The notes beneath the pieces were generated by a model. That model made no database searches. It saw only the letters and a program-made list of their open reading frames with translations, and was not told where the DNA came from. The translations under genes were made by a program, and so were the position numbers. From Acidobacteriota bacterium (GTDB lineage: Bacteria; Acidobacteriota; Aminicenantia; Aminicenantales; Saccharicenantaceae), in assembly GCA_022711665.1 (NCBI GenBank), contig JAKLEN010000002.1:248001-312000 (forward strand): a stretch of DNA of 64,000 bases, written 5' to 3'. Positions 5,149-56,810 of this stretch are shown here, piece after piece. The first letter of the stretch is position 1. Every line of letters begins with the position of its first letter.

Positions 5149-5278
5149 TAAGAACGGGGGGCCCGTAGCCAGCCCCCGTTCCCGTCCGGATCCGAGGGCG
5201 GGCCTGCCGACCCCCGGAGAATGATGCGCGCCGGGGAACGCCGCGGGCGCCCCCCGGCGCGCTCGATATCGGTTCAGG

Positions 5279-6298
5279 TCAGTCCCGGTGCGGGGCGCAG
5301 AGCAACCCGTTGTTGTAGTTGTCCAGGACGGAGCAGAGGGGCTCGCCGACGCGCCAGGGCGACAGCGGTCCGCCGGCGGCGACGCCGCTGCCGACATAGT
5401 ACGTCGCCATCCAGGCATCCGCGGCCGTGATCGCGGCCGAGACGCAGCCGGCGTCATTGCCGATCATGACGTTCAGCTTGGCGGCGACCAGCGCGGCGAA
5501 CATGGTGTAGGTCTTGTCCCCGCCGACCGGCGCCTTCATCAGGGCGATGGCCTCTTCCATCGTGTAGGTCCGACCGCCGATCATAATGCTCGAGACAGGC
5601 CAGGCTTCGGGATGGTTCATCCAGTACCCCGGCGTCCCCGTTCCCGGGGAAGAGTTGGGGATGACCGAGAAGTCGAACCGGAGCAGGCTGATCTTGACGT
5701 AGCCGTTGATCAGGCCGGTATCGAGCGAGGGATGGTTCCCCCAGGTGTAATACGTCGGCAGCTGTTCCGAGATGATGGTGTCCGCGACGCCGCCCTGTTC
5801 CGCGCCCGGACGCTGGATGACGACGGTCTGAACGGCCCCGGCGGGGGTGGTGTACGTGATCGTCAGCCTCGGCCTCTGGGCGATCGTCGCATACTCGCTG
5901 CTGTAGTACGCCGTATACGGCGAGGTGGCGTTCTGCATCATCAGGAAGCCGTAGTTGGGATAGGTGCCGTTGACCCAGGCCTGAACGAGGGCTGTCAGGT
6001 CGACCGTCCGCCAGCCATAGACGTCGTTGACGAACGAGCCGACCACCCCGTCCCAGGCGCTGCCGAAATTCTGCCAGTTTACGCCCAGCTCGTCCCAGCC
6101 CTGCGTGATCCGGTACAAGGTCACCGTCTCCGTCGTCGTGTGGTGCTGGACGAAGATCGCGAACTCGGCGCTGTTGACGATCGAGCCTTGCGGGATGGTC
6201 ACCTGGGCCGCGACAGGCGCGGCCGTCAGGGTCAGCAGGCAGGCCGCCGCGAACGGGAAAGCAACCAGTTTCAGGACCCTTTTGAACCCTTTATGCAT
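5279..6298 (-). CDS. Secreted DNRLRE-domain protein with GYWMNHPEAWP module
   Basis: 339 residues with signal peptide (LLTLTAAPVAAQ). Residues about 35-200 look like a DNRLRE jelly-roll domain: VTLYRITQGWDELGVNWQNF, WRTVDLTALVQAWVNG and RPRLTITY are typical. The C-terminal third carries TPGYWMNHPEAWPVSSIMIG and AALVAAKLNVMIGNDAGCV, a module I have seen at the ends of bacterial surface proteins but whose role is unknown to me. The start follows an excellent AAGGAGGAA. It is probably extracellular or surface-exposed and acts alone; a good minus-strand promoter lies about 160 bases upstream. Confidence 0.75.
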   Translation of the reverse strand: MHKGFKRVLKLVAFPFAAACLLTLTAAPVAAQVTIPQGSIVNSAEFAIFVQHHTTTETVTLYRITQGWDELGVNWQNFGSAWDGVVGSFVNDVYGWRTVDLTALVQAWVNGTYPNYGFLMMQNATSPYTAYYSSEYATIAQRPRLTITYTTPAGAVQTVVIQRPGAEQGGVADTIISEQLPTYYTWGNHPSLDTGLINGYVKISLLRFDFSVIPNSSPGTGTPGYWMNHPEAWPVSSIMIGGRTYTMEEAIALMKAPVGGDKTYTMFAALVAAKLNVMIGNDAGCVSAAITAADAWMATYYVGSGVAAGGPLSPWRVGEPLCSVLDNYNNGLLCAPHRD

Positions 6299-10532: not shown

Positions 10533-10733
10533 TCAGGGCTTCTTGCCGCGTTTCTTCCTGGCGTAAATGCCGAGCGAAACCAGCCCGGCTCCTAGGAGCG
10601 CGATGGCCGTCGGTTCGGCGACGGAACGGACCGGGCCCCGGTCGCCGTGCCTGCGGCGCGGGCCGAGATCGGCGGCCGACGCGAACGACGCGACAGCCAG
10701 CAGGATTAAGATAATCTGAACCGCTTTTTTCAC
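10533..10733 (-). CDS. Minimal PEP-CTERM protein, probable exosortase substrate
   Basis: 66 residues. A signal peptide (IILILLAVASFASA) is followed by about 16 polar, Arg-rich residues and then a PEP-CTERM-type tail: VAEPTAIALLGAGLVSLG, with motif, one transmembrane span and the basic end YARKKRGKK. The motif reads VAEPT rather than the common VPEPT. After predicted processing fewer than 25 residues would remain. It lies 12 bases downstream of the exosortase gene on the same strand, so it is very likely co-transcribed and the cognate substrate. Its tiny mature part argues for a lipid- or glycan-linked peptide, a reporter-like substrate, or a regulator rather than an enzyme. Confidence 0.82.
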   Translation of the reverse strand: MKKAVQIILILLAVASFASAADLGPRRRHGDRGPVRSVAEPTAIALLGAGLVSLGIYARKKRGKKP

Positions 10734-10745
10734 AGATGGCCTCCC

Positions 10746-11675
10746 TTATCCCTTTTCCTTCGCTGATTTATTATCGCCGAGCCCGGAGCGTTTGTCAATC
10801 CCCCCGCCCTCCTCGCCGGGACCCCTGAGGGCCCATAGCGCCAGGCCCAGGAGCACGAGCCCCAGGCCGAAAAAGATGAAGCCGCCCGACTTGTGCAGGA
10901 ACCCGCCGTCGATGATCCGCATGTCCACGAAATACGAGAGCAGGTAGAGGATGACGATGCGGGCCCCGTTCTTGAGGATGGAGACGGGGAACACGGCCAG
11001 GGCCAGGATCGATTTGCGCGACCGGCCGCGCAGGAACATCTGCCCGGCCAGGACCGCCGTGATCAGCAGGGCCAGGGTGGAGCGGATGCCGCTGCACTGG
11101 AAAGCCACCTGCAGGTCGAAGCCGGGCAGGAGGAAAACCGCCCCCTCCTGGACGAACGGCACCCGGAAGGCCCGGAGCAGGAGCGCGGTCACGCCCGTGG
11201 ACCCCGCGACCAGGGCGGCGACGATCCCGGACATCCAGGCGAGAGGCAGAGGGATCATGAACCCGAGGAACAGGAAGGGGAAGAGCGCCCGGACGAAGGC
11301 CTTCCGGCCGAACAGAAGCAGGAAGCCGCCGGCCATGACGAGAAGGCCGGCCAGGGCGACGAGCCCGGCGTGTTCGACCGGACCGGGCCCGCGGACGGCG
11401 TCGACGGCCAACGCCAGGAGCCCGGCGGCCAGGCAGGCGCCGCCTCCCGCCGGGGATCCCGGCCCGCCGCGAAAAAGGACCTTCCGCCGGCCGTACAGTA
11501 TGGCCGCGCTTATGACCGGGACCAGGGGGATGTGGCTGTAAAATTCGGGCGGGCGCCCCTGCAGGACCAGGAAGGCCAGGGGGCGGGCCATCAAAGCCAG
11601 GGCGACGGCGGCGCAGACCAGGAAGGCCCTCACTTTCCAGGGATGCGGCAGCGCGGATCGGTTGGGCCGGTTCAA
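10746..11675 (-). CDS. Exosortase (EpsH/XrtX family)
   Basis: About 309 residues with roughly eight transmembrane spans. The catalytic triad of exosortases is visible: Cys in FQCSGIRS (C194), Arg in KNGARIVIL (R239) and His in FLHKSGG (H261). These cysteine transpeptidases cut PEP-CTERM tails at the inner membrane of EPS-producing Gram-negatives. The start is TTG 11675; no ATG precedes the first span, and GTG at codon 15 is an alternative. A near-consensus promoter ends 14 bases upstream, giving a very short leader. It is divergent from the EPS locus that begins with a NadE-like gene. Confidence 0.88.
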   Translation of the reverse strand: MNRPNRSALPHPWKVRAFLVCAAVALALMARPLAFLVLQGRPPEFYSHIPLVPVISAAILYGRRKVLFRGGPGSPAGGGACLAAGLLALAVDAVRGPGPVEHAGLVALAGLLVMAGGFLLLFGRKAFVRALFPFLFLGFMIPLPLAWMSGIVAALVAGSTGVTALLLRAFRVPFVQEGAVFLLPGFDLQVAFQCSGIRSTLALLITAVLAGQMFLRGRSRKSILALAVFPVSILKNGARIVILYLLSYFVDMRIIDGGFLHKSGGFIFFGLGLVLLGLALWALRGPGEEGGGIDKRSGLGDNKSAKEKG

Positions 11676-11801: not shown

Positions 11802-12764
11802 ATGGACTTCACCAGGGATGCCCTCAAGATCGACTGCGGCGTGGAGGCCGGGCGGATCGCCGCGTTCATCGGCGAGCAGGCCCGGGCCATGCGACGCCGG
11901 GGAGCGGTCATCGGCCTGAGCGGCGGGGTGGATTCCGCGCTGTCCGCTTCGCTGTCGGTCAAGGTCTTCGGCCGGGACAGGGTCCTGGCCCTCCTCCTGC
12001 CGGACAAGGAATCGAGCCCGCAGAGTGCCGAGTTCGCCGCCCGGGAAGCGGCCCGGCTCGGGATCGAAGCGCTGACGGTCGATATCACCCCCATGCTGGA
12101 GGCCTTCGGGACCTACGAAAAGCGGGACGCCGTGGCCCGGGCCGTCCGGCCGGAATTCGGCCCGGACTGGAAGCTCAAGATCACGCTGCCCGCCGACGTC
12201 CTGGACAGGGACGGTTACAACTTTTTCACTCTGACGACGATCGACCCGCAGGGCCGCTCGAGGGCCGACCGCCTGAGCAACGACCAGGCCCAGGGCATCA
12301 TCGCGGCCACCTGCACCAAGCACCGGATCCGCATGATGGTCCAGTATTATTACGCCGAGAAAGCCAATTACCTGGTCTGCGGGACGACCAATCGGAGCGA
12401 GTCCCTCCAGGGGCTGTTCGTCAAGTACGGCGACGGCGGGGTGGATATCGAGCCCATCGCCCACCTCTACAAGAACCAGGTCTTCCAGCTGGCCGAGTTC
12501 CTGGGGGTCATCCCCGAGATCCTCGATCGCGCCCCCTGCCCGGACACCTACAGCGCCCCGGTCACGGACGAGGAGTGGTTCTTCCGGATGCCCTTCAAGA
12601 CCCTCGATCTCCTCCTCTTCGCCTGGGAGAACAAGATCGGCATCCCCGAGGTCTGCCGGGTCATGAAGCTCCGGGAGGACCAGGTCGGGAGGGCCTTCCG
12701 GGATTTCGCCAGCAAGCACCGGACGACCGAGCACCTGAGGCGCCTCCCCCCCTGCCTGCCGTGA
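11802..12764 (+). CDS. NadE-like amide ligase, paralogue 1 (EPS-associated)
   Basis: 320 residues with the NAD-synthetase fold. The PP-loop is SGGVDS (40-45), and CGTTNRSE and VKYGDGGVDIEPIAHLYK match NadE. No nitrilase-type glutaminase domain is present, so ammonia would be the nitrogen donor. The region that in true NadE reads like PSADLxxGQTDE is replaced by APCPDTYSAPVTDEEWFFR, and the same replacement occurs in the paralogue at 17606. Family chemistry is adenylation of a carboxylate followed by amidation. Its place directly before ugd, plus a second copy, makes an EPS-sugar substrate such as a uronic acid plausible; real NAD synthesis is the alternative. Confidence 0.75.
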   Translation: MDFTRDALKIDCGVEAGRIAAFIGEQARAMRRRGAVIGLSGGVDSALSASLSVKVFGRDRVLALLLPDKESSPQSAEFAAREAARLGIEALTVDITPMLEAFGTYEKRDAVARAVRPEFGPDWKLKITLPADVLDRDGYNFFTLTTIDPQGRSRADRLSNDQAQGIIAATCTKHRIRMMVQYYYAEKANYLVCGTTNRSESLQGLFVKYGDGGVDIEPIAHLYKNQVFQLAEFLGVIPEILDRAPCPDTYSAPVTDEEWFFRMPFKTLDLLLFAWENKIGIPEVCRVMKLREDQVGRAFRDFASKHRTTEHLRRLPPCLP

Positions 12765-12786: not shown

Positions 12787-14118
12787 ATGAACACCATCTC
12801 CGTCATCGGGACCGGCTACGTCGGCCTGGTCACGGGCACGTGCCTGTCCGAGTTCGGCCTGAATGTCGTCTGCATGGATACGGACGCCGCGAAGATCCGC
12901 GATCTCGAGCAGGGCCGGGTCCCCATCTTCGAGCCCGGCCTGCCGGCGCTCATCGCCAAGAACGTCGCCGCCGGACGCCTGCGGTTCACGACCGACATGG
13001 CCGCGGCCGTCTCGGCCGCGCCGGTGATCTTCCTGGCCGTGCCCACCCCCCCCGGGGAGGACGGATCGGCCGACCTCCAGCACGTCCTGGCCGCCGCGGA
13101 CGCGATCGCCCGCCACATGACGGAGTACAAGGTCATCGTCAACAAGAGCACGGTCCCCATAGGGACGGGGCGCCGGGTCCGGGAGGTCGTCCGGGCCGGC
13201 CTCGACCGGCGGGGCGCCGGACTCGATTTCGACGTCGTCTCGAATCCCGAGTTCCTGCGGGAGGGCTCGGCCATCCGCGACTTCATGCACCCGGACCGCA
13301 TCGTCATCGGCAGCGACAACGCCAAGAGCCGGGAGATCCTCCGCGAGATCTACAACGTCCTCTACCTCATCGACACGCCCTTCATCTTCACCTCGCTGGA
13401 GACGGCCGAGCTGGTCAAGTACGCATCCAACGCCTTCCTGGCCACGAAGATCGCCTTCATCAACGAGGTGGCCAACCTCTGCGACGCCGTCCGGGCCGAC
13501 GTCCGCGACATCGCCAGGGCCATGGGCATGGACGGCCGGATCGGCAAGTATTTCCTGCACCCGGGGCCCGGCTTCGGCGGCAGCTGCTTCCCCAAGGACA
13601 CGAAGGCCCTGGTCAAGATCGGCCAGGAGCACGGCGTCAGCATGAGCATCGTCGACTCCGTGGTCAGGGCCAACGAGTTCCAGCGGCATCGCATGGTCAT
13701 GAAGATCGAAGCCGGGCTGGCCGGCCTCGAGGGCAAGGTCGTCGGCGTCCTCGGCCTGGCCTTCAAACAGGGCACGGACGACGTCCGCGAGTCGTCGTCC
13801 ATCCCCATCATCCGGGAGCTCGCGGCCGGCGGGGCGGCCGTCCGGGTCTACGATCCCCAGGCCATGGACAACGCCCGGAAGCTGGCCCTGGCCGGCCTCG
13901 ACGCCCTGACATACTGCGCGGACGAGTATGACGCGGCCGCGGGCGCCGACGCGCTCGTCATCCTGACCGAGTGGAACCAGTTCCGGCATCTCGACCTGGC
14001 CCGGATCGCCCGGGCCATGCGCGGCCGGCGCTTTTTCGATCTCCGGAACCTCTACGAGCCAGACGAGGTCGCCGGCTCCGGGCTGATCTACGAAGGCCTC
14101 GGCCGGCTGCAGGCCTGA
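12787..14118 (+). CDS. ugd: UDP-glucose 6-dehydrogenase
   Basis: 443 residues, normal length. The N-terminal Rossmann motif is VIGTGYVGLVTGTC; the middle carries GPGFGGSCFPKDTKAL with the catalytic Cys; the C-terminal domain has GLAFKQGTDDVRESSS. The enzyme oxidises UDP-glucose twice with NAD+ to UDP-glucuronate in the cytoplasm. The GTGYVGLVTG wording marks the UDP-glucose type rather than the WbpA/WecC type, which tends to read GLGYVG. It starts 22 bases after the NadE-like gene behind AGAGAAAGG, so the two form an operon. Its product could feed the fused PssD/PssE-type transferase at 42289. Confidence 0.94.
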   Translation: MNTISVIGTGYVGLVTGTCLSEFGLNVVCMDTDAAKIRDLEQGRVPIFEPGLPALIAKNVAAGRLRFTTDMAAAVSAAPVIFLAVPTPPGEDGSADLQHVLAAADAIARHMTEYKVIVNKSTVPIGTGRRVREVVRAGLDRRGAGLDFDVVSNPEFLREGSAIRDFMHPDRIVIGSDNAKSREILREIYNVLYLIDTPFIFTSLETAELVKYASNAFLATKIAFINEVANLCDAVRADVRDIARAMGMDGRIGKYFLHPGPGFGGSCFPKDTKALVKIGQEHGVSMSIVDSVVRANEFQRHRMVMKIEAGLAGLEGKVVGVLGLAFKQGTDDVRESSSIPIIRELAAGGAAVRVYDPQAMDNARKLALAGLDALTYCADEYDAAAGADALVILTEWNQFRHLDLARIARAMRGRRFFDLRNLYEPDEVAGSGLIYEGLGRLQA

Positions 14119-15429: not shown

Positions 15430-16551
15430 TCAGATCCTGATGAGGATCTTCCGCTCATAGAGCCAGAAGCACAGGCCCCACATCAGCCCCCAGACCCCCA
15501 GATCGACCAGCAGCCGGGCCGTGAGGCCTCCCAGCCAGCCGGCGGTCGCCAGCCCGAATGGCTCGACGATCCGCCGCAGCCACTCGCCCCCGCCCGAATA
15601 GGCAAAAAGGTAGATGAAGATCGGATTGGCGCCGACGCAGGCCAGGAGGGCGGCCCCGGGAACGGGCCGCGGCCCGTCGAACAGCCGACAGGCCAGGGCC
15701 AGGGCCAGGAGGGCGAGTCCCACGCCCACGAGGACGAACGAGCTCGTGCAGAGGCGCCTGATGACAGGCGTGACCGGGTCCAAAGCCAGGCCGGCGACGG
15801 CCGCCAGGACGCCGGCCAGGGCCAGGGTTCTGACCGCCCGGGGCGTCGCCCCGCCGCGACGGAGCGGGCCCGCGGCCAGGACGCCGGCCAGCACGAAGAC
15901 CGCCGCGGGGACGACGTCGAACGTGACCCAGCCGCCTTCGGAGAGGCGGCCGAAGAGCCGCAGGTCCACGTAAGACCCGAAGTTGCGGCCGGCGGTGAAC
16001 GGCTGATCGAAGCCCGGCACGGCCCAGAGCCGGTAGAGGAGCTCCGTCGCCAGGAGCAGACCCAGGGCGAAGCCCGCCTGGAGCCGGGCCGGGGCCTTAA
16101 GGAGCAGGAAGCCGATAAAGCCCGCCAGGGCCAGCTGCGGCAGGACGTCCAGAAGGAATTCGCCCCGCCCGCCGCTCTCGACCGGGCTGATCAGGGAGAG
16201 CGCCCAGCCCAGGGCAAAGAGCAGGCCGGCGCGCCGGGCCGCGCGGCCGAGCGTCGCCATCCAGGTCTCTCCCGCCTCCCATCGCCGCCGATAGGCGAAG
16301 ACCATCGCCGCTCCGCTGATGAACAGGAAGAACGGCAAACCCAGGTCCCAGAGCCGGAGCCCGTGCCAGGGATGGTGCTGGAACTGCAGGCCGATGGCCC
16401 GGAGGACGGGGCCGCCCTTCGCCGACGAGGCCAGGATGTCGGCGAATCCCGTCGTTTCGCCGATCAGCAGGAACATCACGGCGCCCCGGAAGAAATCGAG
16501 CGAAAGGAGCCGCGGACCGGGCCCGCAGAGGCTGTTCGACGCGGCTTTCAC
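15430..16551 (-). CDS. Multi-span acyltransferase-like protein (DUF5009 / heparan-glucosaminide acetyltransferase-like)
   Basis: About 373 residues with roughly ten transmembrane segments. The opening RLLSLDFFRGAVMFLLIGE is the hallmark of the DUF1624/DUF5009 group related to HGSNAT, and QFQHHPWHGLRLWDLGLPFF follows with the conserved histidines. Family members move acetyl groups across membranes onto sugars. GTG 16551 has GGGAG at a good distance; ATG 16572 upstream is possible. A promoter lies just upstream. In this locus it may acylate EPS. Confidence 0.75.
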   Translation of the reverse strand: MKAASNSLCGPGPRLLSLDFFRGAVMFLLIGETTGFADILASSAKGGPVLRAIGLQFQHHPWHGLRLWDLGLPFFLFISGAAMVFAYRRRWEAGETWMATLGRAARRAGLLFALGWALSLISPVESGGRGEFLLDVLPQLALAGFIGFLLLKAPARLQAGFALGLLLATELLYRLWAVPGFDQPFTAGRNFGSYVDLRLFGRLSEGGWVTFDVVPAAVFVLAGVLAAGPLRRGGATPRAVRTLALAGVLAAVAGLALDPVTPVIRRLCTSSFVLVGVGLALLALALACRLFDGPRPVPGAALLACVGANPIFIYLFAYSGGGEWLRRIVEPFGLATAGWLGGLTARLLVDLGVWGLMWGLCFWLYERKILIRI

Positions 16552-16570
16552 GGCTTGACTCCCGCCGATC

Positions 16571-16599
16571 ATTGTCCATATTCCGGCGCCCGGGCACAA
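16571..16599 (-). promoter_or_regulatory. Promoter of the DUF5009-like gene
   Basis: Minus strand: TTGTGC (16594-16599), 17-base spacer, GACAAT (16571-16576). Moderate match only. Confidence 0.4.
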
Positions 16600-17605: not shown

Positions 17606-18571
17606 ATGGCATTTTCGAAGAAGGACATCCAGATCGATCCCGGTCGCGAAACCGAGCGCCTGGTCGGAGAGATGCGCCGCGTCGTCGGCGCGAAGCTGCG
17701 CAAGCGCGGCGCCGTCGTCGGCATCAGCGGGGGGATCGATTCGAGCGTCTGCCTGGCCTTGAGCGTCCGGGCCTTCGGCCCGGAGCGGGTCCTGGGCCTG
17801 ACCATGCCCGAGTCCGACTCCAACCCGGAGAGCGCCCTCCTGGCCAGGAAGCTGGCCCGGACGTTCGGCGTCGCCTACCTGGTCGAGGACATGACCGCGG
17901 CCCTGGCCGGCTTCAACACCTACCGCCGGCGCGACGAGGCCATCAAGAACGTCTTCCCCGAGTATGACGCCACCTACCGGGCCAAGATCGTCCTGCCCTC
18001 GGCCCTGGGAGAGAAGGACCAGCTGAACGTCTTCCGGCTGACGATCATCTCCCCGGAAGGCGAGGAGAAAACGGAGCGGCTGCCGCTCGCGGAGTACCTC
18101 CAGATCGTGGCCGCCTCCAACTTCAAGCAGCGCAGCCGCATGTCCATGCTCTACTACCACGCCGACCGGCTCAACTACGCCGTCATCGGCACGGGGAACA
18201 AGAACGAGCACGAGCAGGGCTTCTTCGTCAAGTACGGCGACGGAGGGGCCGACATCAAGCCCATCGCCCACCTCTTCAAGACGCAGGTCTACCAGCTGGC
18301 CGCCTTCCTGGGCGTCCCCGAGGAGATCCGCAGGCGCACGCCCACGACCGACACCTACAGCGCCGAATGCACCCAGGAGGAGTTCTTTTTCCGGGTCCCC
18401 TTCGAAGTGGGCGACGTCGTCTGGTACGCCATGGAAAAGGGGGTCCCCGTCGGCGAGGTCGCCCGGGAGCTGGGGATAGGGGAAGAGCAGGTGGCCCACA
18501 TCCAGAACGACATCCGGCGCAAGATCCGGGCCACGGACTACCTTCGGGCCGAGCCCCAGCACCTCGGCTGA
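17606..18571 (+). CDS. NadE-like amide ligase, paralogue 2 (EPS-associated)
   Basis: 321 residues, homologous over its full length to the protein at 11802. PP-loop SGGIDS (41-46); GTGNKNEHEQGFFVKYGDGG and DIKPIAHLFKTQVYQL are NadE-like. The usual NadE substrate segment is replaced by TPTTDTYSAECTQEEFFFR. No glutaminase domain. The C-terminus adds a helical stretch (GELARELGIG-type, IQNDIRRKIRATDYLR). It is followed 34 bases later by an acyl-AMP ligase, so the two share an operon. Keeping two diverged copies in one polysaccharide locus argues for two carboxylate substrates, not for housekeeping NAD synthesis. Confidence 0.75.
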   Translation: MAFSKKDIQIDPGRETERLVGEMRRVVGAKLRKRGAVVGISGGIDSSVCLALSVRAFGPERVLGLTMPESDSNPESALLARKLARTFGVAYLVEDMTAALAGFNTYRRRDEAIKNVFPEYDATYRAKIVLPSALGEKDQLNVFRLTIISPEGEEKTERLPLAEYLQIVAASNFKQRSRMSMLYYHADRLNYAVIGTGNKNEHEQGFFVKYGDGGADIKPIAHLFKTQVYQLAAFLGVPEEIRRRTPTTDTYSAECTQEEFFFRVPFEVGDVVWYAMEKGVPVGEVARELGIGEEQVAHIQNDIRRKIRATDYLRAEPQHLG

Positions 18572-18605: not shown

Positions 18606-20174
18606 ATGACCCGCACGCGGCTCGTCCATGACTTCCTGGCCGGCGCGGCCGACCGCGACCCCGGCAAGAAGGCCCTCTTCGCCCAGGGCCGCTGGCACGC
18701 CTACGGCTGGCTGGAGGAGCAGGCCAACCGGTTCGCCGCTCTCCTCCTTCGGTCGGGGCTGCGCCGGGGCGACCGGGTCGCTCTGCTTCTCGAGAATTCC
18801 GCGGAATACGTCATCACCTATTACGCCGTCCTCAAGGCCGGCGGCATCACCGTCGCGCTGAACACCGAAAGCACGGCCGACGACGTCGAGTACATCGTCC
18901 GGGATTGCGGCGTCCGGTTCCTCGTGACCGGCCCGCGGCTCCTGGCCCGGGCCTGCCCGCCCCCGCGGGCTCCGGAGCCGGGCGCTCCCGCGGCCCGGGA
19001 GCCGCTCCTCGAGGCCCTCTTCCTCTGGTCCGGCCGGGCGGCGGAGAGAACGGCTTTGGCCCGGTCGGGGCCGGTCCTCCTGCCCGAGGCGTATGCGGGA
19101 GAGACGGCCGCCCCTCCCCCGGCGCGGCTCGTCGACCTCGACGTCGCCTCGATCGTCTACACGTCGGGAAGCACGGGCAGGCCCCGCGGCGCCACGCTGT
19201 CGCACCTGAACATCGTCTCGAACACCAGGTCCATCGTGGAGTACCTCGGGCTCACGCCGGCGGACCGGATCCTGGTCGTCCTGCCCTTCTATTACATCTA
19301 CGGCAAGTCGCTGCTCAACACCCACGTCGCCGTCGGCGGATCGGTCGTGATCGACAACCGCTTCCTCTATCCCAACGTCGTCCTGCAGACCCTGCGGGAG
19401 CAGGAAGCCACCGGCTTCGCCGGCGTCCCCTCGACCTTCACCATCCTGCTCAGCCGCTCGACCCTCAAGTCCTCGACGTTCCCCAGCCTGCGGTACGTCA
19501 CCCAGGCCGGCGGGGCCATGGCCCCGGCCGTCCAAAAACAGGTGGCCGAGGCTTTCGCCCCGGCCCGGCTGTTCGTCATGTACGGCGCCACCGAGGCCTC
19601 GGCACGGCTGTCTTACCTCGACCCCAGCGACCTGCCCCGGAAATGGGGCTCCATCGGGAAGGCCATCCCCAACGTCGACCTCTTCGTCGCCGACGAGGCC
19701 GGGACCCCCCTCGGACCCGGCCGGGAGGGCGAGATCGTCGCCCGGGGCTCGAACATCATGTCCGGGTACTGGAACCATCCCGAGGAGACCGCCGCGGTCC
19801 TGAGGAACGGCCTCTATTACACCGGCGACATCGGCCGGATGGACGAGGAGGGCTTTCTGTACGTCGTGGGGCGCACCAAGGACATGATCAAGATCGGGGG
19901 AAACAGGGTCAGCGCCAAGGAGATCGAGGAGGCCCTCTACGAGCACCCGGCCGTCCTCGAAGCCGCGGTCATCGGGGTCCCGGACGAAGTCCTGGGCGAG
20001 GCCCCCAAGGCCTTCATCGCGGTCAGGCCGGGGTCACCGGATGACGTCGTCGGGGGGCTGCCCGCGTTCCTGCAGAAGCGCCTGGCTCCCTACAAGGTCC
20101 CCAAGCTCTACGAGGTCCGCCCGGCCCTGCCCAAGAACGACGCCGGCAAGATCCAGAAGCTGAAGCTGAGATAA
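18606..20174 (+). CDS. Acyl-AMP/acyl-CoA ligase (ANL superfamily), exosortase-locus type
   Basis: 522 residues. ANL core motifs are all present: A3 (YTSGSTGRPRGATLSH), A5 (YGATEAS), A7 (LYYTGDIGRMDEEG), A8 (VGRTKDMIKIGGNRVSAKEIE) and the catalytic Lys near the end in NDAGKIQKLKLR. It activates a carboxylic acid with ATP and loads it on CoA or a carrier protein. A free acyl carrier protein is encoded at 38495. Ligase-plus-ACP pairs are a known companion of exosortase/EPS loci. The acyl substrate is unknown. Confidence 0.9.
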   Translation: MTRTRLVHDFLAGAADRDPGKKALFAQGRWHAYGWLEEQANRFAALLLRSGLRRGDRVALLLENSAEYVITYYAVLKAGGITVALNTESTADDVEYIVRDCGVRFLVTGPRLLARACPPPRAPEPGAPAAREPLLEALFLWSGRAAERTALARSGPVLLPEAYAGETAAPPPARLVDLDVASIVYTSGSTGRPRGATLSHLNIVSNTRSIVEYLGLTPADRILVVLPFYYIYGKSLLNTHVAVGGSVVIDNRFLYPNVVLQTLREQEATGFAGVPSTFTILLSRSTLKSSTFPSLRYVTQAGGAMAPAVQKQVAEAFAPARLFVMYGATEASARLSYLDPSDLPRKWGSIGKAIPNVDLFVADEAGTPLGPGREGEIVARGSNIMSGYWNHPEETAAVLRNGLYYTGDIGRMDEEGFLYVVGRTKDMIKIGGNRVSAKEIEEALYEHPAVLEAAVIGVPDEVLGEAPKAFIAVRPGSPDDVVGGLPAFLQKRLAPYKVPKLYEVRPALPKNDAGKIQKLKLR

Positions 20175-39045: not shown

Positions 39046-39148
39046 TTTGGCGCGCCTGCCGGCGGCCGACGAAGGAGGATGAGCGCTGGGGACATCGGGA
39101 TTCCCGTTGGGGCCCCGTGTTGCGTCCCGGTCAGGAGCTGAACCCGGG

Positions 39149-40186
39149 ATGATGCCTCAAATATTGAACCCTCTCGAACATCCCGGGTGGGACTCGCTGG
39201 TCCTGAGGGCCGGCGATCCGGGCTTCTTCCACAGCGCGGCCTGGGCCAGGATCCTCCAGGCTAGCTACGGCTTCAAGCCGTCCTATGTCGCCGCCCTCGA
39301 CCGGGACCGGCTGGAGATGGTCCTGCCGCTGATGGAGGTTCCAGGCCTCTTCGGGGCCCGGCGCGGCGTCTCGCTGCCGTTCACCGACTATTGCCCTCCC
39401 CTGGGCGACCAGGCGCTCGCCGGGGAAGCGGTCCGTTTCGCCATCGATCACGGCGGCCGGGCCGGCTGGCGCTCCATCGAATGGCGCGACGCCGCCGGCT
39501 TTGACGCCGGGACGCCGGCCTCGGAGACCTATTACGGTCATGACATCGATCTCCGGGGAACGGACGAGGAGCTGCTGGGCCGGCTCCACGAGGGCCACCG
39601 GAGGAACATCCGGCGGGCGGAGCGCGAAGGCGTCTCCATCGAATTCAGCGGGTCGCTCGAGGCGCTCCGGGGCTTCTGCCGCCTGAACGGCCGGACGCGA
39701 AAACGGCACGGCCTGCCGCCTCAGCCGTTCGCGTTCTTCGCCGGCATCTACGAACACGCCCTCTGCCGGGATCTCGGCTTCGTGGTCTCGGCCCGCCGGT
39801 CCGGCCGGCTGCTGGCCGCCGCGGTCTTCTTCCATTTCGGCGGGCAGGCCCTGTTCAAGTTCGGCGCTTCGGACCCGGCCTCGTTCCCGTTCCGGCCGAA
39901 CAACCTGATCATCTGGGAGGCCATGCGGCGGTGCCGGGACATGGGCCTGCGGTCTTTGAGCCTGGGCCGGACCGAGCCGGACAACCCCGGGTTGCTGCGC
40001 TTCAAGCGCGGCTGGGGCGCGCGGGAACGGGTTTTGCGGTACTATAAGTACGACCTCAGGAAGAGGGCCTTCCTCGCCAGGGGGCCGATCTCGAGAAAGA
40101 GAGGCTGGCAGACGAAGCTGTTCTCCAGGCTCCCGGACGGTATCCTCCGGGTCATCGGCCGTCTGGCCTACAGATATGTGGGATGA
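39149..40186 (+). CDS. FemAB-like GNAT acyltransferase B (exosortase/EPS-locus type)
   Basis: 345 residues. The motif order fits FemAB-related GNAT proteins of PEP-CTERM/EPS loci: DPGFFHSAAWARILQ, LPFTDYCPPLGD, GHRRNIRRAEREGV, the acetyl-CoA-type strand LLAAAVFFHFGGQALFKFGA, and SLGRTEPDNPGLLRFKRGWG. Such proteins transfer acyl or aminoacyl groups, some from aminoacyl-tRNA. ATG 39149 follows AGGAGC. A related protein is at 41205, showing local duplication around the deacetylase gene. Confidence 0.78.
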   Translation: MMPQILNPLEHPGWDSLVLRAGDPGFFHSAAWARILQASYGFKPSYVAALDRDRLEMVLPLMEVPGLFGARRGVSLPFTDYCPPLGDQALAGEAVRFAIDHGGRAGWRSIEWRDAAGFDAGTPASETYYGHDIDLRGTDEELLGRLHEGHRRNIRRAEREGVSIEFSGSLEALRGFCRLNGRTRKRHGLPPQPFAFFAGIYEHALCRDLGFVVSARRSGRLLAAAVFFHFGGQALFKFGASDPASFPFRPNNLIIWEAMRRCRDMGLRSLSLGRTEPDNPGLLRFKRGWGARERVLRYYKYDLRKRAFLARGPISRKRGWQTKLFSRLPDGILRVIGRLAYRYVG

Positions 40187-40221
40187 GCTCCGTTCCGAAC
40201 CGTCGTCCGAGGGAAAGGACC

Positions 40222-41208
40222 ATGCCGACGAGCGTTCTTGACCTCTACTACCTCCTCAAGCCTTTTATCCCGCGAAGGCTCCAGATCGTCGCCCGCCAGC
40301 TGCTGGCGGCCCGGAAACGGAGGTCGGTCGGCGGCGTCTGGCCGATCGACCCTAAAGCGGCCGCCGCGCCGCGGGGCTGGCGGGGCTGGCCCGAGGGGAA
40401 GAAGTTCGCCCTGATCCTCAACCACGACGTGGACACCCAGAGGGGCCATGATCGCTGCGGCAGCCTGATGGAGCTGGAGACGCGCCTGGGGTTCAGGTCC
40501 TCGTTCTATTTCGTCCCGGAAGGCTACCGCGTCTCCGCGGACCAGCGCCGGTCGATCGAACAGGCCGGATTCGAGGTCGGCGTCCATGGGCTCCGGCATG
40601 ACGGCAAGATGTTCAAGTCCCGCAGGATCTTCGACGAACGGGCCCGGCGCATCAACAAGATCCTGAAGGAATGGCGGGTCGTCGGGTTCAGCTCCCCGTC
40701 CATGCATCGGAACCTGGACTGGGTCCTGGACCTGGACATCGAATACGACATCTCGACCTTCGACACGGACCCGTTCGAGCCCCAGAACGAAGGCGTCGGC
40801 CGGATCTTCCCCTTCTTCGTCAACGACGCTGCATCCGGGCGCGGTTACGTCGAGATCCCCTATACGCTGCCCCAGGATCACAACCTCTTCATCATCCTCG
40901 GCGAAAAGGACATCCGCGTCTGGGCGGAAAAGCTCGAATGGATCGCCGCGAACGGCGGCATGGCCCTGGTCAACACCCATCCGGACTATATGCTCTTCGA
41001 CGGGGCCCGGCGCGGCTTCGAGGAATACCCGGTCGGGCAATACCTGTCGTTCCTCGAGCATGTCCGGACCAGGTACGCCGGGCAGTACTGGAACGCGCTG
41101 TGCCGCGAGGTCGCCCGGTTCTGGCGGGCCGAGATGGTCACCCCGGGCGCCGGCCCGGCGGGGACGCCGGGGGACGAGACGGGGCCCCGGGGATCGGGAC
41201 GGGCATGA
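40222..41208 (+). CDS. Polysaccharide deacetylase (NodB/CE4 family) 2
   Basis: 328 residues from ATG 40222, which has GAGGGAAAGG upstream; ATG 40183, overlapping the previous stop, is possible. NodB motifs are ALILNHDVDTQRGHDRC (metal Asp in HDVD), GVHGLRHDGKMF (H-x3-H variant) and GFSSPSMHRN. Length and the LNHDVD variant match deacetylases of exosortase-A-type EPS loci. No signal peptide is obvious, so it may act on a lipid-linked or nucleotide-linked sugar. It sits between two FemAB-like genes and overlaps the next by ATGA. Confidence 0.8.
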   Translation: MPTSVLDLYYLLKPFIPRRLQIVARQLLAARKRRSVGGVWPIDPKAAAAPRGWRGWPEGKKFALILNHDVDTQRGHDRCGSLMELETRLGFRSSFYFVPEGYRVSADQRRSIEQAGFEVGVHGLRHDGKMFKSRRIFDERARRINKILKEWRVVGFSSPSMHRNLDWVLDLDIEYDISTFDTDPFEPQNEGVGRIFPFFVNDAASGRGYVEIPYTLPQDHNLFIILGEKDIRVWAEKLEWIAANGGMALVNTHPDYMLFDGARRGFEEYPVGQYLSFLEHVRTRYAGQYWNALCREVARFWRAEMVTPGAGPAGTPGDETGPRGSGRA

Positions 41209-54539: not shown

Positions 54540-56810
54540 ATGCCCGAACCCGCGATCGACCACAAGGAAGGCCTGCTGGCCCAGGTCCGGCAGTACGGGC
54601 TGACGGTCCTGAGATGGAAATGGGTCGCGGCCTCGTTCTTCGCCGCCGTCGTCCTGGTGGCGGCCGGGCTGAGCTTCCTCATCCCCTCCGTTTACATGGC
54701 CCACGGCAGCATCTGGATCGAGGGCGACTCCAAGATCCTCCCCTTCGAGGACGTCCAGTCGTTCAACGCCGGGACGAACCTGCAGAGCCACGCCAGGCTC
54801 CTGAGAAGCCGGACCCTGGCGGCGGACGTCATCGACCGGCTGAAGCTCTACGAGAACCCGGACTACATGGGCGGGCTGCCGCCCGGCGAGCGGAAGGCGC
54901 CCGATCCCGCCGATCCGGCCGTCAAGGAGCGCCTGGTCCAGGACTTCCTGAAGAACGTCAGCGTCTCTTCCAACGAGCGGACGAGCCTCGTGGACGTCAG
55001 CTTCAGCAGCCGGAACCCCCGGCTGGCAGCCGATATCCTGAACGCCCTGTTCGACGCCTACATCGACATGATCGTCCGCAAGAGATATTCGGCCTCCGAG
55101 AAGGCCACGGAGTTCCTCAACGCCCAGATCATCGAGCTGCGGACCGAGATCGAGACGCGGGAGAAGGAGCTCAACCGCTACGGCTCCGAGAAGGACATCC
55201 TGCCCCTGACGGCCGCCGAGGCCCCGACGGTCAGCCGGATCAGCGAGGTTAACAGCGCCCTGACGGCCGCCACCCTCGACAAGATCAACAAGCTGAACTA
55301 CTACAATCAGCTCAAGGCCGCCCCCCTGGGGGAGGTGCCCGACGCCCCGGCTGGCAGCATGATCCAGACCCTGCGGGAGCAATACCTGGCCCTGAAGCGC
55401 CAGTACGCCAACAGGCTGGCCTTCGTCCGGCCCGAATATCCCGAGATGCAGCGCCTCAAGTCGGAGCTGGACCTGGCCACGGAATCTCTCCAGGTCGAGA
55501 CCCAGAACCTCATCAGGAACGCCCTGGCCGACTACCAGACGGCCCTGGCCAAGGAGCAGTCCCTCCAGCGCCTGCTCAACGAGCAGAAGAACGAGGCCTA
55601 CAAGGTCAGCGGCAACGCCGTCGTCTACAACAGCCTGAGGATCGAGCTCGAGAACAAGAAGACCCTGCTCGAGACCCTGTCCCGCCGCCAGAGCGAGACC
55701 GACGTCTCCTCGAGGCTCAAGGGCCTCGAGGCCCTGAACGTCTGGATCGTCGATAAGGCGGATTTCCCCCTGAAGCCGGCCTTCCCCAACAAGAGGCGCA
55801 ACATCCTGATCGGCATCCTCATAGGCCTTGGCGGGGGGATCGGGATCGCGCTCGGCATCGAGTATCTGAACCACTCCGTCAAGACCTCCAAGGACATCGC
55901 CGCGACCGTCGGCCTGCCCACCTTGGGCAGCATCCCGGCCTTCGAGGACGAGCTCCGGCCCAAGGGGCCCAAGGCCGAATTCAAGAGGCTCTTCTCGATC
56001 CTGCTCATCCGGGAGCAGCGCGACGAGCGGCCGCGGCGCCGGGCCCGGCGCCGCCCGGACTCGGGGCTGCCGGAATCGAGCGTGCTGGCGGGCGACCCGC
56101 CGGAGTCGCGGCGCGACGGCGGGAGGATGGAGCTGATCGCCTCCCGGGAGCCCCAGTCGATCCAGGCCGAGAGCTACCGGTCGCTGCGGACGACACTGCT
56201 GGTCTCGTCCCCTCCCGGCCGGGTCAAGTCGATCCTGATGACCAGCCCCCTGGCCCGGGAAGGCAAGTCGACGACCGTCTCCAATCTCGGGATCACCCTG
56301 GCGGAAGCGAACAAGAAGGTCCTCATCATCGATTCCGACCTGCGCAAGCCCCGGCAGGCCCGGATCTTCGGGATCAGGAACAACCATCGCCCCGGGCTGT
56401 CGAATTACCTCAGCGACCGGATCGAGATCGACGCGATGATCCAGCCGACGGGGCACGCCAACCTCGACCTGATCTCCAGCGGCCCCCTGCCGGCCAACCC
56501 GATCGAGCTCATCGCCTCGGACGCCATGGACAATCTCGTCGCCAACCTCAAGCGGCGGTACGATTATCTCCTGTTCGACGCGCCCCCCGTCCTGGCCGTC
56601 TCCGACGCCCTGGCCCTGGGCCCGATGGTCGACGCGATCATCCTCGTCGCCCGCGGCGGGCATACGCCCAAGCAGGCCATGCGCCAGGCCAAGCAGAAGC
56701 TCGACGCCCACAAGTTGAAATGCCTCGGCGTGGTCCTCAACGGCATCGACCTGGTCGAACAGGACGGCTACTACGCCCGGCAGTACTACAAGTACGCCGA
56801 TCCGGAATGA
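54540..56810 (+). CDS. Polysaccharide co-polymerase with BY-kinase domain (Wzc-like)
   Basis: 756 residues. A Wzz domain with two spans (about 25-45 and 420-440) surrounds a periplasmic coiled coil. The cytoplasmic kinase has Walker A SPLAREGKSTTVSN (K576), A' VLIIDSDLRKP and Walker B YDYLLFDAPPVL. The last residues carry a tyrosine cluster (YYARQYYKY), the autophosphorylation tail of BY-kinases. An Arg-rich linker (RRRARRRPDSG) sits between the domains. It sets chain length and couples Wzy to Wza. Confidence 0.94.
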   Translation: MPEPAIDHKEGLLAQVRQYGLTVLRWKWVAASFFAAVVLVAAGLSFLIPSVYMAHGSIWIEGDSKILPFEDVQSFNAGTNLQSHARLLRSRTLAADVIDRLKLYENPDYMGGLPPGERKAPDPADPAVKERLVQDFLKNVSVSSNERTSLVDVSFSSRNPRLAADILNALFDAYIDMIVRKRYSASEKATEFLNAQIIELRTEIETREKELNRYGSEKDILPLTAAEAPTVSRISEVNSALTAATLDKINKLNYYNQLKAAPLGEVPDAPAGSMIQTLREQYLALKRQYANRLAFVRPEYPEMQRLKSELDLATESLQVETQNLIRNALADYQTALAKEQSLQRLLNEQKNEAYKVSGNAVVYNSLRIELENKKTLLETLSRRQSETDVSSRLKGLEALNVWIVDKADFPLKPAFPNKRRNILIGILIGLGGGIGIALGIEYLNHSVKTSKDIAATVGLPTLGSIPAFEDELRPKGPKAEFKRLFSILLIREQRDERPRRRARRRPDSGLPESSVLAGDPPESRRDGGRMELIASREPQSIQAESYRSLRTTLLVSSPPGRVKSILMTSPLAREGKSTTVSNLGITLAEANKKVLIIDSDLRKPRQARIFGIRNNHRPGLSNYLSDRIEIDAMIQPTGHANLDLISSGPLPANPIELIASDAMDNLVANLKRRYDYLLFDAPPVLAVSDALALGPMVDAIILVARGGHTPKQAMRQAKQKLDAHKLKCLGVVLNGIDLVEQDGYYARQYYKYADPE

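Follow-up and report, generated by a model that had tools for sequence, protein, structure and literature searches.

The window (the whole 64,000-nucleotide stretch analysed here) carries on its minus strand an exosortase gene (10746..11675), followed after 12 bases by a second minus-strand open reading frame (10533..10733) that begins with GTG and encodes a 66-residue PEP-CTERM-like protein, and the two genes lie as a preliminary description of this DNA had placed them. Between the two genes, a Shine-Dalgarno-like GGGAGG (10740..10745, minus strand) comes immediately after the stop codon of the exosortase, leaving 6 bases to the GTG. The exosortase product exceeded the cut-offs of Pfam PF09721 (125.5 bits, cut-off 25.7) and TIGR04178 (52.6 bits, cut-off 23), and the triad proposed for it, C194 (11094-11096), R239 (10959-10961), and H261 (10893-10895, all minus strand), was invariant in all nine aligned sequences, as was N236, which together with R239 gives an N-x-x-R motif. 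It narrowly missed the general 8TM_EpsH model (102 bits, cut-off 105.55) and did not reach the cut-offs of the named subfamilies XrtC (120.4 of 300 bits), XrtA (114.4 of 208), and XrtD (102.9 of 400); with every subfamily score below its cut-off, assignment to a named subfamily was rejected. An AlphaFold2 (AF2) model of moderate confidence (pLDDT 71.9) consists mostly of long helices in a membrane-type fold, and suggests a many-helix protein that would be inserted in the membrane. Comparison of this model with PDB structures gave no significant match, and no PDB chain was matched by sequence.

The small protein can be divided into three parts. Residues 1-20 (10674..10733, minus strand) form a predicted signal peptide, which AF2 models as a helix (residues 2-22), and cleavage is likely after A18-S19-A20, with A18 invariant in our alignment of the family (A1). 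Residues 21-37 (ADLGPRRRHGDRGPVRS; 10623..10673, minus strand) form a Gly/Pro/basic linker, in which G24-P25 is invariant among the exosortase-linked copies in A1 and GP is almost invariant overall. The preliminary description had called this linker Arg-rich and shorter than 25 residues; its shortness holds (about 20 residues), but its composition is Gly/Pro/basic with the GP pair and not strictly Arg-rich. Residues 38-66 (10536..10622, minus strand) form the predicted sorting tail, consisting of VAEP (10611-10622), a transmembrane helix, and the basic end KKRGKKP. V38, E40, and P41 are invariant in A1, so that of the motif first read as VAEPT, the VAEP is conserved and the following T is not. 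AF2 places the second helix at residues 39-62, with a low-confidence linker between the two. The predicted mature peptide, from ASA to VAEP, would be about 19-26 residues long in most copies, with a net charge of 0 to +3.

Assignment of the tail to the PEP-CTERM type rests on TIGR02595, which matched residues 40-62 above its cut-off (20.3 bits, cut-off 16) and matched all 17 homologues of the small protein (E up to 1), whereas PF07589 was missed by 1.2 bits (19.5 vs 20.7). A signal peptide, a C-terminal helix, and a basic end are all present in the predicted product. A literal Pro-Glu-Pro is absent, nearly all copies having AEP or TEP and a single one (L034) PEP; the published motif is described as near-invariant rather than invariant. 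We found no NCBIfam or Pfam model specific to these proteins, and the window protein defines a small family of its own.

The codon bias score of the small frame (-0.76) alone would not call a gene. However, adjacent homologues are encoded at ten other loci, and exosortase-linked copies compared with one another mostly give dN/dS values of 0.13-0.33 (0.45 for one closely related pair, and below 1 throughout), from which we conclude that the gene is real; conservation and purifying selection rule out a chance frame. Constraint is strongest in the tail (pN 0.07-0.14). Within the order, this exosortase was found in 10 of 94 genomes, and all 10 carry an adjacent homologue of 66-82 residues, as compared to a small protein in 4 of the 84 genomes lacking it (Fisher p about 1e-10, a value that ignores relatedness and is descriptive only). 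Stronger evidence than this test comes from gene order: in the genus of the window (g1) and in G050 the small gene is found downstream of the exosortase, and in g4 upstream of it, which means that the adjacency outlasted rearrangement. The possibility, raised at the outset, that the small frame would prove unconserved beside the exosortase in relatives was thus not borne out within the order. At the G050 locus (L014), the exosortase frame is interrupted on a contig holding N/X stretches, a frameshift or an assembly error. A contig filed under Tepidanaerobacteraceae (L070, JANLFP010000026.1) carries a Saccharicenans-like exosortase locus with the same pair and is probably mis-binned.

The four exceptions are congeneric genomes, G001, G003, G005, and G012 (loci L062, L064, L063, and L065, respectively), in whose incomplete assemblies no exosortase was found by PF09721, TIGR04178, or alignment. 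At least some copies therefore persist without an exosortase. The orphan copies have a dN/dS of about 0.5, a looser constraint than that on exosortase-linked copies. They are possibly remnants; alternatively, the exosortase gene may have escaped assembly in these genomes. In G005, G012, and a second copy in G006 (L066), the small gene has a dipeptidase-like gene on one side and, as far as both can be read from the sequence, an EamA-like transporter gene on the other. The earlier suggestion that the small protein is a sensor of sorting found no supporting feature, and it is further disfavoured by survival of the protein in these four congeners.

The genome of the window has one exosortase by PF09721, TIGR04178, and alignment searches. 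Tails were sought in it with PF07589, TIGR02595, and two alignment profiles, and none of the four returned another genuine C-terminal PEP-type tail; the best tail-model score in the genome was 19.6 bits. A scan of the whole window likewise gave no second tail of the VAEP type. The candidates from outside the family that we inspected, in this genome and in relatives, proved to be internal, to lie in an overlapping or wrong frame, or to come from long proteins with a membrane tail. A dedicated system is one in which a sorting enzyme has a single target, and the single targets of rhombosortases are mostly adjacent to the enzyme (PMC3237569), while PEP-CTERM proteins have been counted at a median of eight per genome (PMC1569441). 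Since these searches returned a single exosortase and one genuine C-terminal tail, the genome has a dedicated single-target system, and that the exosortase and the small protein are a conserved pair of this kind is well supported. The dedicated miniature substrate of the preliminary description was accordingly upheld, being adjacent wherever the exosortase was found in the order (10 of 10 genomes), and the opposite outcome, many ordinary PEP-CTERM proteins sharing the tail of a degenerate small frame, did not occur there. The single-target state is not strict in every relative, because the small gene occurs twice in G002, where the other copy is about 3.5 kb away (L013), and likewise twice in G006.

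That an exopolysaccharide (EPS) locus borders the pair was confirmed by profile matches of the neighbouring genes. Divergent from the pair lies a NAD synthase-like ligase gene (11802..12764, plus strand; NF002048, 382.7 bits), homologues of which occur near the exosortase in relatives (tblastn), and it is followed by a UDP-glucose 6-dehydrogenase gene for UDP-glucuronate supply (12787..14118, plus strand; TIGR03026, 467 bits), which tblastn placed near the pair in one relative only. Further along are genes for a NagX-like transmembrane N-acetyltransferase (15430..16599, minus strand; NF046061, 107.7 bits, below the cut-off of 480), a second NAD synthase-like ligase (17606..18571, plus strand; NF002048, 458.3 bits), an AMP-forming acyl-CoA ligase similar to the exosortase A-associated type (18606..20174, plus strand; second-best match TIGR03098, 388.4 bits, below cut-off), a FemAB-like protein of the PEP-CTERM-associated type (39107..40186, plus strand; sole match TIGR03019, 114.3 bits, below the cut-off of 260.35; homologues in relatives), and an EPS chain-length determinant with a tyrosine autokinase (54540..56810, plus strand; TIGR01007, 172.1 bits, above the cut-off of 108.05; TIGR03007, 159.1, below cut-off). 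A sugar-phosphate transferase is also encoded in the locus. The NagX-like, NAD synthase-like, acyl-CoA ligase, and FemAB-like genes, and that for the 40183-41208 product, are found again close to the exosortase in most relatives; the NagX-like homologue seems broken in G023 (L019). The NAD synthase-like genes are two paralogues that flank the exosortase region, and one such homologue recurs beside the exosortase of relatives together with the acyl-CoA ligase and an acyl-carrier-like protein, a set that perhaps carries out an amidation or acylation step on the EPS. An electrostatic bond between the peptide and an acidic EPS was also considered and is weakened by the lack of conservation of the UDP-glucose dehydrogenase gene beside the pair.

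In the wider phylum, a profile of the family was run over 297 genomes. Apart from the family of the window, it matched only the tails of proteins of 186-320 residues and of a few longer frames, with one exception: in G271, a 66-residue protein is encoded immediately in front of an exosortase (L184:246-446 and 450-1346). A detection rule for tiny partners beside exosortases, which recovered 11 of 11 known pairs, was also applied, and G244 encodes a 73-residue protein about 700 bases behind its exosortase (L192:6782-7003 and 5152-6069). These two tiny PEP-CTERM-like proteins come from genomes of two other acidobacterial families. Common descent with the family of the window would be a tentative reading for them, since the one from G271 failed the TIGR02595 test. 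At 30 further exosortase loci, such PEP-CTERM neighbours as could be recognised were 180 and 305 residues long. Predicted tiny substrates beside exosortases are, on this reading, rare but recurrent in Acidobacteriota.

The explanation we favour, and consider somewhat probable as a whole, is a dedicated exosortase system with one nearly tag-only substrate, whose product would be a surface-held peptide, perhaps serving EPS retention. Sec would export the 66-residue precursor, with removal of the signal peptide after ASA, and the VAEP-transmembrane-basic tail would keep the precursor anchored in the inner membrane on its periplasmic side. The exosortase, through its Cys-Arg-His triad, would then cut at or near VAEP and transfer the new C-terminus of the peptide, about 20 residues long, to an acceptor (a lipid, an amino sugar, or an EPS unit) that the neighbouring locus may help to make. 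Export, cleavage, attack at VAEP, and transfer are modelled on PEP-CTERM and archaeosortase systems (PMC1569441; PMC7157517). In the last step, the surface-held Gly/Pro/basic peptide would help to keep EPS on the cell, by analogy with a Nostoc crtB exosortase mutant that still makes EPS but retains it poorly (PMC12188702), and in view of the adjoining EPS locus. That the small protein is a substrate of the adjacent exosortase is very probable; EPS retention as its role is a tentative proposal, with somewhat less than half of our confidence behind it. Of the functions first suggested, that of a surface-attached peptide fits best, and the peptide might alternatively anchor a glycan. In favour of the explanation as a whole are the pairing in every exosortase-bearing genome, the kept adjacency, dN/dS values below 1, the one exosortase, and the XrtA-like neighbours; against it are the four congeners with a copy but no exosortase, AEP in place of PEP, the missed PF07589 cut-off, and an exosortase model of moderate quality that resembles no PDB structure significantly.

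Other readings of the pair are less well served by these data. It is unlikely, though conceivable, that the peptide is a connector, linked by the exosortase through its C-terminus to a lipid or glycan of the envelope, with the EPS built on or tied to it, in which case it would be a ribosomally made polysaccharide primer or linker that evolved more than once in Acidobacteriota. The small protein could instead be an uncleaved two-helix subunit or regulator that aids the exosortase in acting on other, unrecognised substrates, as its obligate adjacency, its small size, and the AF2 model of two helices joined by a loop would allow; however, all 17 copies match the PEP-CTERM sorting domain in their tails, the genome offers no other genuine PEP-type tail to act on, and copies occur in genomes without an exosortase, so we regard this as quite improbable. 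Release of the peptide as a signal or an antimicrobial, with the exosortase as its maturation protease, fits the short mature form predicted (about 20 residues) and its mostly positive charge, but that charge is modest, the setting is one of EPS synthesis, and a scan of the immediate neighbours revealed no recognisable gene for an exporter, a receptor, immunity, or a two-component system; we judge it very improbable. We take a similarly poor view of the proposal that this is an ordinary short PEP-CTERM protein and that other substrates with divergent tails were missed. The tail models are indeed short and weak, as the best score in the genome illustrates, but two of them and two alignment searches find nothing there except the small-protein family, and the same profile readily detects PEP-CTERM proteins of ordinary length in other Acidobacteriota. 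Least probable of all is that a larger PEP-CTERM protein has eroded to a remnant kept by proximity alone, for although the protein is very short and its orphan copies are under looser constraint, ten exosortase-linked copies are intact, of similar length, and under purifying selection, the low tail pN and the GP pair are maintained, and two other exosortases have tiny partners.

Among known systems, XrtA EPS systems resemble the pair in having a Cys-Arg-His membrane enzyme and a tripartite tail of the PEP type, and resemble its locus in having similar ligase, FemAB, and chain-length genes, of which the window versions are distant relatives. Unlike them, the window exosortase scores below the XrtA cut-off and no PrsK/PrsR was seen beside it, and there is one tiny target here rather than the median of eight proteins (PMC1569441). 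In L069 (Syntrophaceae) and L077 (an uncultured bacterium), apparently XrtA-type in an order judged from sequence, the exosortase is followed by histidine-kinase-like and response-regulator-like genes, with no small partner. Haft et al. are said to have described VPEID-CTERM/exosortase E in 2012 as a dedicated single-target system. That system and rhombosortase/GlyGly-CTERM (PMC3237569) share with the window pair one enzyme and one target side by side, but their enzymes belong to another subfamily or fold, and the window pair has the VAEP motif and a predicted payload of about 20 residues. The archaeosortase A/PGF-CTERM system, with an enzyme related to exosortase, provides a model for the acceptor step, as cleavage in Haloferax leads to C-terminal lipid anchoring (PMC7157517), but it is archaeal and its substrates are large and diverse. 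Ordinary PEP-CTERM proteins of other Acidobacteriota have the same tail and are found by the same profile; they differ in having frames of about 186-320 residues and large ectodomains. None of the papers searched mentions exosortase together with Aminicenantes.

As judged from its sequence, then, the pair represents PEP-CTERM sorting pared down to a single enzyme and a substrate that is little more than its tag, and the small protein shows how little substrate content may suffice under selection. Known exosortase substrates are large, repetitive, and probably glycosylated, which is partly why the acceptor is hard to find, and we know of no bacterial exosortase substrate for which the acceptor has been resolved. 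A mature substrate of about 20 residues, encoded 12 bases from its cognate enzyme, would have a modified C-terminus readable by intact-peptide mass spectrometry. The main interest of the pair thus lies in offering a natural substrate of minimal size for identifying the exosortase acceptor.
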